NCBI GenBank assembly: GCA_030833315.1
Contig: JAURHM010000011.1
Location: 1-58,958, forward strand
Reading direction: 5' to 3'
Length of the DNA: 58,958 bases
Origin: Burkholderiales bacterium
GTDB taxonomy: Bacteria; Pseudomonadota; Gammaproteobacteria; Burkholderiales; SG8-41
Made by a program: the position numbers and the translations under genes. Every line of letters begins with the position of its first letter. Position 1 is the first letter of the stretch. This document shows, one piece after another, positions 70 to 30,859 of this stretch. Below the pieces are notes generated by a model, which was not told the origin of the DNA, searched no databases, and saw only the letters and a list, made by a program, of their open reading frames with translations.

Positions 70-123
70 ACTGGTGGGTCGTGTTGGACTCGAACCAACG
101 ACCAAGGGATCATGAGCCCCCTG
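70..123 (-). repeat. Left att-like repeat: partial copy of the tRNA 3' half
   Basis: This segment repeats 3662-3715, which covers the 3' half of the intact tRNA: 41 bases match exactly (70-110 against 3662-3702), and the match continues with two mismatches to 123. The remaining 5' part of the tRNA here is degenerate (124-146). A duplicated tRNA 3' end next to an integrase gene is the usual footprint of integration by a tyrosine recombinase, so I read it as the distal attachment site of an integrated element. Confidence 0.8.
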
Positions 124-176
124 TTAGTCCGATGGACTAAACCCAAAATCAAAGACTTAGGAGAATTTTACAGCTT

Positions 177-27602: not shown

Positions 27603-28565
27603 ATGCGTTGCAGCACCCGCATCACGCTTGGCCTGATTGCAATCCTGCTGTCCGGACTTGTCGCAGCCCAGCAATACCCCGCGCGACCGATCCGCGTCAT
27701 CGTTCCCTTCCCGGCGGGCGGCAACGTCGACGTTTTTTCGCGCGTGCTGTTCCGCCAGGTTGAAAGTGAAATCGGCGGCACCTTCGTCATCGACAACCGC
27801 GGCGGCGCCAACGGTATCGTCGGCGCCGACACCGTTAAAAACGCCTCACCCGACGGCTACACGGTGATGAACACGTCCTTCAGTTTCGCCGTGAACCCGT
27901 CCATCCACAAAAAACTGCCCTTCGATATCTTGCGCGACTTCACGCCGATCACCAATGTCGCCACCGGCCTCGGCTATCTGATGGTGGTGCATCCCAGCCT
28001 GCCGGTGAAGTCGACCGCGGAACTGATCGAGGTCGCGAAAAAGCAGCCGCTGCGCTACAGCACCGCCGGCGTCGGCAACGGCCAGCATCTGGCCGGCGCA
28101 CTGCTCGGCAGCATGGCGAAAATCGAAATGCTCCATGTTCCCTACAAGGGCGGCGGTCCGGCGATGACCGCCGTTGCCAGCGGTGAAGTCCAGGTTCATT
28201 TCCCGGCGGCTTCGGTCGGGCAGCCCATGCACAAGACGGGACGGGTGCGCGCCATCGCCTTCACCGGCGCCAAACGCCTGTCGACCATGCCGGAGCTGCC
28301 GACCATCGGCGAAACCGTTGCCGGTTATGTCAGCGACGCTGGCTGGCACGGCATGTTCGGTCCGGCAAAACTGCCGGCACCGATCACACTCAAACTGCAG
28401 AAAGCGGTACACAAGGCGCTGCAGGAGCCGAAAATCCACGCCCATTTCGTCGACAACGGCTATGAGCCCAACGGTGATCCACCCGATGTGTGGGCCAAGC
28501 AGTATCGCGCGGACGTCAAACGCTTCGCCGAAATCGCCAAGGCTGCGGGAATAGAACCCCAATAA
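27603..28565 (+). CDS. Bug/TctC-family receptor protein (no. 3)
   Basis: This 320-residue protein has a signal peptide ending VAAQQYP, the loop VPFPAGGNVDVFSR, VIDNRGGANGIVGAD and HVPYKGGG. The start at 27603 follows GGAGGAGA; the frame itself opens 78 bases earlier without a signal. It stands alone on the plus strand between the divergent dehydrogenase operon and the selenoprotein pair, with an inverted repeat (about 28574-28597) but no U-tract after it. Confidence 0.95.
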   Translation: MRCSTRITLGLIAILLSGLVAAQQYPARPIRVIVPFPAGGNVDVFSRVLFRQVESEIGGTFVIDNRGGANGIVGADTVKNASPDGYTVMNTSFSFAVNPSIHKKLPFDILRDFTPITNVATGLGYLMVVHPSLPVKSTAELIEVAKKQPLRYSTAGVGNGQHLAGALLGSMAKIEMLHVPYKGGGPAMTAVASGEVQVHFPAASVGQPMHKTGRVRAIAFTGAKRLSTMPELPTIGETVAGYVSDAGWHGMFGPAKLPAPITLKLQKAVHKALQEPKIHAHFVDNGYEPNGDPPDVWAKQYRADVKRFAEIAKAAGIEPQ

Positions 28566-28641
28566 CCCCTGTGCCGACGGTCGCAGGGAAGCGACCGCCG
28601 GCAGCACGTCCACTACAATGCGCGAATGCCGGCTGCACCCG

Positions 28642-28669
28642 TTGCGCTGTCATGCAATGTCGCTACAAT
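28642..28669 (+). promoter_or_regulatory. Sigma-70-like promoter of the selenoprotein pair
   Basis: TTGCGC (28642-28647) and TACAAT (28664-28669) are separated by 16 bases, close to the vegetative consensus. Transcription would start around 28676, about 35 bases before the ATG at 28711. Predicted by eye only. Confidence 0.55.
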
Positions 28670-28710
28670 CAAACCGCGTGCAGACTTGCGCGTACGCTAA
28701 CGGAGATTTC

Positions 28711-29235
28711 ATGCGCCTTGATGCAAGACTTACGGCAATCCTCTGCGCCAGCGTGCTGTTTGCCGCTGCGCCGCTCACCGCGCCAGCTGAACCGCTGCAG
28801 CAACTGCCTTCACCGGTTCCCGTCCCCGCATTCAAGCTGCCCGGACTCAACGGCAGCAGTGGCAGCGACGCTGACCTGCGCAACAAGGTCACGGTGATCC
28901 GTTTCTGGGCCTCCTGGTGAAGCACCTGCATCGGTGAAATGCCCTCCGTGCAGAGGGCACATAACGAACTGAAAAAAGACGGTATCCAGGTCATCACCGT
29001 GTCGATCGACGGCATCGGTGAAGCTGCAGTGAAGCCGGTATTTACGAAAAACGGATACACCATGCCGGCACTGATTGACGCCAATATGGCCGTCGCCCGC
29101 GACTTCGGCGTGCGCAGCGTGCCGTCGACCGTGATCGTCGACGCCAAAGGCATGGTCCGGGTCCGCACCACGGGGCATGTCGATTTCGACGGCGCCGATC
29201 TACGGAATTACGCACGCAGCCTCAACCGCAAGTAG
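28711..29235 (+). CDS. Exported thioredoxin-like selenoprotein, UXXC (in-frame TGA read as Sec70)
   Basis: Reading through the TGA at 28918-28920 gives one 174-residue protein: signal peptide (about 1-26), a short linker, and a TlpA/thioredoxin domain. The TGA falls exactly at the first catalytic position: RFWASW-Sec-STC-IGEMPS, where relatives have WCxxC. Sequence after the TGA is in the same frame and fully thioredoxin-like, with the cis-proline loop GVRSVPSTVIVDAKG and a normal stop at 29233-29235. No other Cys is present in the mature chain. ATG 28711 follows CGGAGA. A stem-loop 19 bases after the TGA fits a bacterial SECIS. The likely role is reduction of a periplasmic partner, most simply the peroxiredoxin encoded next. 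Standard gene finders would split or lose it. A nonsense mutation is the alternative. Confidence 0.85.
28940..28959 (+). promoter_or_regulatory. Candidate SECIS stem-loop of the thioredoxin-like selenoprotein
   Basis: TGCCCTC (28940-28946) pairs perfectly with GAGGGCA (28953-28959) around the loop CGTGCA. The apical loop begins 26 nt after the TGA and has G as its second base; published descriptions of bacterial SECIS elements ask for a loop 16-37 nt from the UGA with a G among its first two bases. The stem is also coding sequence, as is normal in bacteria. SelB binding is inferred. Confidence 0.7.
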
Positions 29236-29255
29236 TTTTTCAACAGGAGACCGTG

Positions 29256-29828
29256 ATGACAACAGCTATCAGGCTTTACAGCTGGATGACTGCCGTACTG
29301 CTCGGAGCCGTGTTATCCGCTGCGCCCGCTCAGGCCCAGTCGCTGAAAGTAGGCGACAAGGCGCCGGATTTTTCGGTAATTTCATCAACCGGGAAAACGA
29401 TTGCGCTGGGCGACTACCTCGGCAAAAAGAATGTCGTGCTGTTTTTCTACATCGCGGCATTCACTGATACCTGAACCAGCGAAATCGTGGCCTTCCAGCT
29501 TGACCTTCCCAAGTTCGAGGCCACCAACACCCAGGTCCTGGGTGTCAGCGTCGATTTCAACAACGCCAATGTGATCTTTGCCGAACGGCTGGGACTGCGC
29601 TTCCCACTGCTCAGCGACACGCGCCGCATCATGACCCGAGAATACGGCGTCCTCAACAACGATCCGTCGATGGCCAATGACGCCAAACGCGTAGCCGGTT
29701 ACCTGCGTGCCAAACGCGCCTGGTTCATCATCGACAAGGCGGGCTTGATCCGCTACGCCAAGGTCGAGGATCCACGAGGCATCATGCCGAATGACGAACT
29801 GATCGAAGTGCTGCAGAAAATCCAGTAA
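29256..29828 (+). CDS. Exported peroxiredoxin (AhpC/TSA) selenoprotein (in-frame TGA read as Sec73)
   Basis: Reading through the TGA at 29472-29474 gives a 190-residue protein with a signal peptide (about 1-27, ending AQAQ) and a complete AhpC/TSA fold: VGDKAPDFSVISSTGK, then FFYIAAFTDT-Sec-TSEIVAFQ, where relatives have Thr-x-x-Cys with the peroxidatic Cys. The frame stays open with clear family sequence (LGVSVDF, LRFPLLSDT, AWFIIDKAGLIRYAKVED) to TAA at 29828. There is not one Cys codon in the gene, so it is a one-Sec enzyme without resolving Cys and needs an external reductant. AGGAGA lies before ATG 29256; a GTG one codon earlier is also possible. It lies 20 bases after the UXXC thioredoxin gene and is followed by a terminator. 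Confidence 0.85.
29487..29524 (+). promoter_or_regulatory. Candidate SECIS stem-loop of the peroxiredoxin selenoprotein
   Basis: A 7-bp lower stem (29487-29493 with 29518-29524) carries a 6-bp upper stem (29497-29502 with 29510-29515, one G-U pair) and a seven-base loop, starting 12 nt after the TGA with the apical loop about 28 nt away. The distance fits a bacterial SECIS. The loop as drawn (ACCTTCC) lacks the expected early G unless the closing G29502-C29510 pair is open, so this one is less certain than its neighbour. Confidence 0.5.
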
Positions 29829-29843
29829 GTTGTCATGCCAAAC

Positions 29844-29877
29844 AAAAAGGGCGGTGCAGGAATGCACCGCCCTTTTT
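29844..29877 (+). terminator. Bidirectional terminator after the selenoprotein pair
   Basis: GGGCGGTGCA (29849-29858) pairs with TGCACCGCCC (29863-29872) across a GGAA loop, flanked by A and T runs, so it can stop transcription from both sides: the selenoprotein pair on the plus strand and the Bug gene on the minus strand. Confidence 0.92.
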
Positions 29878-29893
29878 CATTTTGCGAACAGCT

Positions 29894-30859
29894 TCAGTCC
29901 AGCTTCAGATTGAGCTTTTTCAGGATCCGTTCATTGCGCTGCATTTCGTTGCGGATGTAAGTGTCGTAATCGGCCGGCGACATCGTGCCTTCCGAGAAAC
30001 CCTGCTTGGTCAGGATCGCACCCGCTTCCGGCGCCTTCAGCGCCTTGGCGATTTCCGCCGACAGGCGCTCCACGATGGGCCGCGGCGTACCGGACCGGAC
30101 CATCACCCCGAACCAGTTCAGCGACTCGAAGCCCGGCCAGCCGGATTCAGCGATGGTCGGAACCTCCGGCAGATTGACTGCACGCTGCGCCGAGGTCACG
30201 GCAATGCCCCGCAGGCGACCGGTCGGAATGTAATGCGAGCAATCGAGCACATTGCCGACCAGCAGCGTGATATGCCCGCCGAGAATTGCCGTGGTCGCCG
30301 GAGCGCCGCCGCCGAAAGGAACATTGACGATGTCGATCTTGGCGACATCCTTGAACAGTTCACCGGCGATGCGGCCGCCGCCGATGATGCTCGACACGCC
30401 CCAGGTCAGCTGCCCAGGACGGGCTTTCGCCAGCGCCACCAGCTCCTTCATGTTTTTCACGGGCAGCGAAGGATGGGCGCAGTAGATCAGCGGGTTGTAA
30501 ACCATCCGCGTCACGCCGTGAAAATCACGCAGCGTGTCGTACGGCAGCTTGTTGTAGGCGAAGGGATTCACCGTAAAACTCGTCGCCATCACCAGCATGG
30601 TGTAACCGTCGGCCGGCGCGCGTGCCGCGATTTCCGTGGCAATCACCGTATTGGCACCAGGCCGGTTTTCAATCACCAGATTTTGGCCCAGCGCTTTGGA
30701 CACCGGCGGCGCATAAAGCCTGGCCATGGTGTCGGCTGCGCCGCCCGGCGGAAACGGTACGAGGACGCGGATCGACTTGACCGGATACTCCTGGGCCTTA
30801 GCCTGAAACGAAACCAGCGCAGCAACAACAAGCAGTATCCGCGACAGAACAAACGCCAT
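29894..30859 (-). CDS. Bug/TctC-family receptor protein (no. 4)
   Basis: This 321-residue protein has a signal peptide (about 1-22), the loop VPFPPGGAADTMAR and VIENRPGANTVIATE. Unusually the generally conserved HVPYKG segment reads NVPFGGGAPAT, so ligand contacts may differ. ATG 30859 follows GGAGGAAGA. It stands alone on the minus strand, upstream of the shared terminator. Confidence 0.93.
   Translation of the reverse strand: MAFVLSRILLVVAALVSFQAKAQEYPVKSIRVLVPFPPGGAADTMARLYAPPVSKALGQNLVIENRPGANTVIATEIAARAPADGYTMLVMATSFTVNPFAYNKLPYDTLRDFHGVTRMVYNPLIYCAHPSLPVKNMKELVALAKARPGQLTWGVSSIIGGGRIAGELFKDVAKIDIVNVPFGGGAPATTAILGGHITLLVGNVLDCSHYIPTGRLRGIAVTSAQRAVNLPEVPTIAESGWPGFESLNWFGVMVRSGTPRPIVERLSAEIAKALKAPEAGAILTKQGFSEGTMSPADYDTYIRNEMQRNERILKKLNLKLD

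Follow-up and report, generated by a model that had tools for sequence, protein, structure and literature searches.

Introduction

An envelope peroxide relay made up of ScsB, TlpA and PprX was reportedly described in Caulobacter crescentus by Cho et al. in 2012. The relay is cysteine-based and leads from ScsB to TlpA and on to PprX (PMC5403849). PprX is presented as the first periplasmic peroxidase identified, with both H2O2 and cumene hydroperoxide as substrates (PMC9144841).

Selenocysteine (Sec) forms of both kinds of exchange partner have been recorded, and thioredoxin-like as well as peroxiredoxin families stand in the lists of prokaryotic selenoproteins (PMC13188914, PMC9312934). For the peroxiredoxin selenoproteins a PxxxTxxU motif with a proline at position -7 has been named (PMC13188914). 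Neighbouring genes for a peroxiredoxin and another redox selenoprotein were found in single marine reads; in the sections of that paper available to us the functional link was left open, and Prx-like 2 was placed near PF04592 (PMC2398784).

Here, we describe a betaproteobacterial locus predicted to combine these features. It resembles the marine reads in that a Sec-peroxiredoxin gene adjoins another redox selenoprotein gene (PMC2398784). Its likeness to ScsB-TlpA-PprX consists in an exported TlpA-like protein and an exported peroxiredoxin, both predicted, with a membrane thiol transporter that would feed them. In contrast to the Caulobacter proteins, with PprX compared by its published description, both redox proteins carry Sec, their genes lie side by side, and a DsbD takes the place of ScsB as the transporter found (PMC5403849, PMC9144841).

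Results

Two adjacent genes with in-frame TGA codons

The stretch of DNA that was analysed (58,958 nucleotides; the window) belongs to contig 64 of a draft genome with a size of 3.1 Mb and a completeness of 98.1%. The locus comprises the following features.

28711..29235, plus strand: gene of a TlpA/ResA-like thioredoxin, predicted to be exported (P0001, Trx); 174 codons; active site WASW-U-STC (UxxC)
28918..28920, plus strand: TGA read as selenocysteine 70 of Trx; read in the sequence, and TGA in 41/41 type-1 Trx matches of the family
28940..28959, plus strand: SECIS-like hairpin of the Trx gene, TGCCCTC-CGTGCA-GAGGGCA; starts 19 bases 3' of the TGA
29245..29249, plus strand: AGGAG, ribosome-binding-like site ahead of the Prx start; read directly
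29256..29828, plus strand: gene of an AhpC/TSA peroxiredoxin, predicted to be exported (P0002, Prx); 190 codons; FTDT-U-TS (TxxU); no Cys
29472..29474, plus strand: TGA read as selenocysteine 73 of Prx; read in the sequence, and TGA in 43/43 type-1 Prx matches of the family
29487..29524, plus strand: SECIS-like two-part hairpin of the Prx gene; starts 12 bases 3' of the TGA
29844..29877, plus strand: terminator-like perfect inverted repeat; arms 29844-29858 and 29863-29877 (15 bp), 4-nt loop, A/T-rich ends

As the original prediction had claimed, the in-frame TGAs at 28918 and 29472 occupy catalytic positions, and the Pfam AhpC-TSA matches span both. The frames are open on either side of each TGA and run intact to a TAG (Trx, 29233-29235) and a TAA (Prx, 29826-29828). 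Cys73 of Trx is encoded by TGC at 28927. The start of the Trx gene is preceded by GGAG, and the two genes are spaced by 20 bp. Signal-peptide-like starts, likewise expected for both proteins, were found with a simple home-made scan that chooses the best-scoring start and is not a dedicated predictor. The proposed shared terminator corresponds to the perfect 15-bp inverted repeat, which is not among the calls of a consensus terminator scan. A promoter had also been proposed; the scan of 28500-29950 returned no sigma-70-like site. At the edge of the window (75-144, minus strand), Rfam gave a borderline tRNA match of 29.4 bits against a cut-off of 29, which was not called by ARAGORN.

Selenocysteine machinery and use of UGA

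A search of the genome for the Sec machinery, suggested as a check of the original prediction, returned all components. The searches detected selA (571 bits), selB (423 bits) and selD (414 bits), and one tRNA-Sec exceeded the cut-off, called by ARAGORN as tRNA-SeC with the anticodon tca. On contig 3, a region of about 5 kb contains selA, selB and the tRNA-Sec gene. TGA still serves as a stop codon as well: among 37 long open reading frames of the window, chosen mechanically so that some may be non-genes, 13 end in TGA, as do several orthologues of the Trx and Prx genes themselves. A genome-wide change of the genetic code was therefore rejected.

Two further genes of this genome carry a TGA. 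The selD gene (L135/L011, G000:C51:34571-35500) has one internal TGA, and SelD is probably itself a selenoprotein. Another gene (L133, G000:C103:52161-52619) encodes a second TxxU peroxiredoxin (PFAFTGGU) and starts without an evident signal peptide; genes resembling it, with TGA, occur in many genomes of the family.

Conservation of the TGA codons and of the gene pair

Each read-through protein was used as a query against 74 genomes from 9 genera of the family. With type 1 defined as the Prx matches down to 2.8e-54 (the next match was at 1.8e-32) together with all Trx matches with TGA, the search yielded 43 Prx genes in 42 genomes and 41 Trx genes. Exactly one stop was found in each of them, in every case a TGA (43/43 and 41/41). 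This answers a question raised with the original prediction, namely whether the homologues carry Cys or TGA at these positions. Forty contiguous pairs lie on one strand with Trx first, so that the predicted neighbourhood of two exported selenoproteins corresponds to a conserved two-gene unit with predicted export signals. One pair (G011) is split over the ends of two contigs, and the Prx genes of G013 and G029 are located at contig ends. Where the contig continues, no type-1 Prx without Trx was seen in the 74 genomes. The unit is absent from 32 of the 74 genomes, including two of the window's own genus (G012 and G016), both with selB. At a limit of 1e-60, selB was detected in 39 of the 42 unit-bearing genomes; it was missed in G019 (84% complete), G022 (74%) and G060, the last of which has a 92-residue start of selB near a contig start.

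A search of 399 genomes of the order (1e-30) gave 15 Prx matches, all with one TGA, 11 from the window's family (f1) and 4 from a second family (f6). In f6, TGA is present in 4/4 Prx genes; a Sec-Trx gene lies just upstream in three, one Prx begins at the contig start, and the readable Trx partners all have TGA (3/3). selB was over the cut-off in 4/4 of these genomes. In a sample of the class (369 genomes, 1e-20), seven matches were obtained, the window's own gene and six without a stop; in a sample of the phylum (398 genomes, 1e-20) there were three, the window's own gene, one without a stop and one with TAG. Neither the 74 family genomes (limit 1e-10) nor the 399 order genomes (limit 1e-30) yielded a member of this Prx clade with Cys. 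A scan of named genomes yielded 10 loci. Three close ones (L052-L054) are metagenome bins, probably from lake water to judge by the record titles; they appear to be the same contigs as G027, G026 and G029 and were not counted separately. L052 is titled Bordetella parapertussis and the other two betaproteobacterial. The pair of L052 groups with a betaproteobacterial genus; the species label of this bin looks wrong.

Comparison with six relatives gave dN/dS values after the TGA of 0.15-0.23 for Trx, where the sequences of L093 and L098 were trimmed to equal length and left unaligned, and of 0.09-0.23 for Prx, indicating purifying selection. The length after Sec is 115-117 residues in Prx and 104-113 in the Trx set. 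Because a single TGA recurs in 43/43 Prx and 41/41 Trx genes, chance or sequencing error is excluded as its origin. The probability that the TGAs are true stops or errors in decayed genes is vanishingly small: TGA does work as a stop in this genome (13/37 long frames), but its presence in all type-1 orthologues, the purifying selection after it, the SECIS-like hairpins described below and the full Sec machinery speak against this explanation, and pseudogene formation or sequencing error was rejected on the first two grounds. Both Trx and Prx are almost certainly selenoproteins.

A mobile origin of the pair was also considered and rejected. The viral-contig scan gave 6 pattern matches and no relative, and all 330 matching plasmid records had less than 60% identity; among the 20 plasmid matches listed, the annotated ones are peroxiredoxin or redoxin.

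SECIS-like hairpins downstream of both TGA codons

By sequence comparison, there is a SECIS-like hairpin with compensatory changes 3' of each TGA. The Trx hairpin has a 7-bp stem and the loop CGUGCA. Over 44 rows comprising 41 distinct sequences, 97.9% of the cells are paired, as opposed to 31-67% in slid versions, and offsets 23/34 form C-G in 24, U-A in 15 and U-G in 2 sequences. The paired fraction and the 17 double-change cells were reached in 0 of 2000 permutations in which codons were swapped among sequences with the same amino acid; codon use is kept and relatedness ignored in this procedure, so that these figures and those for Prx are indicative.

The Prx hairpin was counted over 44 rows with 36 distinct sequences, after removal of other Prx kinds (L055-L057, L126-L133 and L145) and of the type-1 rows L141, L143 and L144. 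Here, 85.3% of the cells are paired compared to 83.0% in the permuted sets, none of which was as high (0 of 2000). Double-change cells amount to 17 as against at most 14 in the permuted sets (0 of 2000), and the slid controls span -3 to +1. Some outer pairs fail in many rows, with offsets 12/49 pairing in 12/36, which suggests that one structure fits the genera unequally.

Folding energies were compared with those of synonymous shuffles. The Prx hairpin of the window reached a z of -2.4 (1 of 200 shuffles as low), and z averaged -1.55 when all kinds of Prx with TGA were taken together (55 sequences). Another stretch of the Prx gene, with its start at -60, was equally strong (z -2.4, 3 of 300 as low). 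The Trx hairpin of the window (z -1.3, 26 of 200 as low) is not exceptional and is not singled out by the mean z of -0.5 over 41 sequences, so that folding energy lends it weak support. For the Cys homologues, the mean z was 0.1 in a set of eight, one of which reached -1.4, and 0.2 in a set of four.

The thioredoxin-like protein

Trx matches Pfam AhpC-TSA at residues 37-151 (5.6e-23), and its best solved relatives by sequence are thioredoxin-family proteins (6.3e-25). Its best NCBIfam matches, ResA and DsbE models among them, scored 76.5, 73.5 and 55.2 bits and all remained under the cut-off; the ResA-like WAxxUGC model gave 76.5 of 300 bits. No curated cut-off of a ResA, TlpA or DsbE model was exceeded by Trx, and none of the listed NCBIfam cut-offs was reached by Trx or Prx. 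The window's Trx contains two cysteines, Cys73 and one in the signal-peptide region. Both the UxxC motif and an xxPxT (cis-Pro-like) site are kept in 44/44 Trx of f1 and f6, and 1/44 has a Cys besides that of UxxC between 41 residues before Sec and the C-terminus. Based on these motifs, Trx is a putative TlpA/ResA-like exported thioredoxin in its Sec form.

With the described UxxC selenoproteins, termed Trx-like or 'Prx-like thiol:disulfide oxidoreductase', it shares a PF00578/thioredoxin-like protein with UxxC (PMC13188914, PMC2398784). It differs from them, as they appear in the available sections of these papers, by scoring below every listed NCBIfam cut-off and by always adjoining a Sec-Prx gene where the contig continues.

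The peroxiredoxin

The Pfam AhpC-TSA match of Prx covers residues 32-167 and profile positions 1-123 of 124 (1.5e-30), and the best solved relatives by sequence are peroxiredoxins (8.8e-25). AlphaFold2, given an alignment of 4 rows, produced a poor model (mean pLDDT 60.1, pTM 0.59), and no conclusion was based on it. The claim that the Prx gene has no Cys codon at all held true. Over the region that begins 41 residues ahead of Sec and ends at the C-terminus (a shorter stretch in the truncated L144), Cys is absent in 46/47 Prx of f1 and f6 and present in 1/47. Since the mature protein is devoid of cysteine, Prx is expected to be reduced from outside and not by internal resolution.

The threonine at -3 (TxxU) was found in 47/47 Prx. 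The arginine identified by alignment with 2ywn, which we take to be catalytic, is present in the window's Prx and in 44/47. The three proteins without it (L157, L158 and L159) belong to f6 and have [NI][AP]TVM in place of KR[AS]WF in this region, with Thr and Sec kept. At -7, the proline of PxxxTxxU is absent in 47/47 and the position is taken by Ile (40), Val (5) or Thr (2). The missing proline, together with the Arg missing in 3/47, might indicate that the Prx-like protein is no general peroxidase and instead reduces a different oxidant or serves as a sensor, in either case being reduced by the UxxC protein. We regard this as very unlikely given the invariant Thr, the Arg kept in 44/47 and the strong AhpC-TSA match. 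Prx is rather predicted to be a divergent, not textbook, Sec-type AhpC/TSA peroxiredoxin with peroxidase activity. Like the described TxxU family (PMC13188914, PMC9312934), it is an AhpC/TSA protein whose peroxidatic residue, preceded by the Thr, is Sec; departures from that family, as far as the sections available describe it, are the predicted export, the lack of Cys, the exchange of the -7 proline in 47/47 and the tie to a UxxC partner.

Linkage of the two genes

The genes flanking the pair differ between genera while Trx and Prx stay together; a larger operon was therefore set aside and the two-gene unit kept. The flanking gene of the window, presumably TctC-like, belongs to the neighbour cluster that occurs most often (c0). 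In the Trx tree, all 41 type-1 sequences group in a single clade (100/99). In the Prx tree, 63 Sec rows and 13 Cys rows are split by a 99/95 branch. Both trees were rooted at the midpoint and have several long branches, and the Trx bootstrap was not settled; the Prx alignment and tree do not include L059-L061, which the motif search had missed, and f6 sequences are absent from the trees.

A second Sec-Prx clade of the same family (L126-L132; FTPTU in six members, FAPTU in a seventh, divergent one) is also linked to a TlpA-like gene. In 7/7 genomes, Prx is followed by a Cys-type TlpA-like gene, the reverse of the order in the window. These neighbours fall outside the type-1 clade among other TlpA-like paralogues (own grouping 90/56). 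An acidobacterial bin (L055:6001-6900) contains two consecutive Sec-Prx frames (FTGGU and FTSGU), a possible tandem duplication.

As two layouts with different TlpA-like partners exist, a functional link is likelier than coincidence, and relatives keeping the two genes together also argue for functional pairing. Alternatively, the proteins might have separate jobs, the UxxC protein in cytochrome c maturation or disulfide repair and Prx being reduced by another thiol. The ResA and DsbE models among the best Trx matches, all under their cut-offs, fit this idea, and conserved linkage alone is no proof of contact. However, the pair is kept while its neighbours change, and in the second Sec-Prx clade the linked gene is another TlpA-like one, which makes separate jobs rather unlikely. 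Trx and Prx very likely work together.

A proposed periplasmic relay

Decoding of UGA as selenocysteine in both proteins would make the unit an exported selenium-based thiol-peroxidase. The selenol of Sec73 in periplasmic Prx would reduce a hydroperoxide and be converted to Se-OH. The UxxC protein would then reduce oxidised Prx, with Sec70 attacking and Cys73 resolving, and DsbD would re-reduce Trx. A further, DsbD-like electron source had been postulated in the original prediction, and the genome encodes one full-length candidate. The only DsbD_TM (PF02683) match is a 590-residue protein with an N-terminal DsbD domain (PF11412), a membrane domain and a C-terminal thioredoxin domain, which we read as DsbD.

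We hold the relay drawn here, from Prx Sec73 via Trx Sec70/Cys73 to DsbD, to be fairly probable, with hydroperoxide as the presumed substrate, the presumed flow from Trx to Prx and DsbD as the putative donor. The absence of the -7 proline in 47/47 and of the Arg in 3/47, the location of the DsbD gene on a different contig from the pair, the unremarkable folding energy of the Trx hairpin, the equally strong second stretch in the Prx gene, the promoter scan with no site and the 32/74 family genomes without the unit weigh against it. An obligate selenium relay from protein to protein in the periplasm, in which oxidised Sec73 of the Cys-free Prx would form an intermolecular diselenide with Sec70 of its dedicated partner and be resolved in this way, is a more tentative version that we put forward with some doubt.

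Electrons could also flow in the reverse direction. Peroxide-driven oxidative folding is known for the pair PRDX4 and PDI, and peroxide might similarly oxidise Prx, which would oxidise the UxxC protein, so that disulfides are made in exported proteins. The gene pair, the Cys-free Prx and the predicted signals for export of both proteins fit such a route, but by similarity the partner comes nearest to proteins of the TlpA/ResA/DsbE type, which are reducing, and the genome has DsbD, and we judge reversed flow to be distinctly improbable. The reductive relay remains our preferred reading. By analogy, the pair would most likely be the selenium counterpart of ScsB-TlpA-PprX, the peroxide relay already known from the cell envelope.

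Discussion

The component families of the unit are known; what is new, within the literature searched, is the exported pairing of two selenoproteins. No description of an exported Sec-Trx/Sec-Prx two-gene unit was found in the available sections of the open-licence papers searched. The suggestion that the module is possibly undescribed has to be narrowed, since both families are listed in reviews, adjacent genes for Prx and redox selenoproteins had been seen (PMC2398784) and a Cys-based TlpA-PprX system is known (PMC5403849).

The two proteins probably act together outside the inner membrane as a defence against peroxide that is based on selenium, with peroxidase activity predicted from the protein family. 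Both genes will be truncated or overlooked by any annotation in which TGA counts solely as a stop. A study of 2006 reported formate dehydrogenase as the only selenoprotein of Sec-decoding Betaproteobacteria (PMC1794560). Compared to that picture, a group of uncultured betaproteobacterial relatives retains an envelope unit dedicated to two selenoproteins, and beyond the pair the genome of the window encodes a further Sec-Prx as well as a SelD whose gene has a TGA inside it. The mature pair comprises three redox residues, U in Prx and U plus C in its partner. If the diselenide relay were true, peroxide reduction and the recycling step would both run on selenium. The pair is a natural minimal system for asking why selenium is kept over sulfur.
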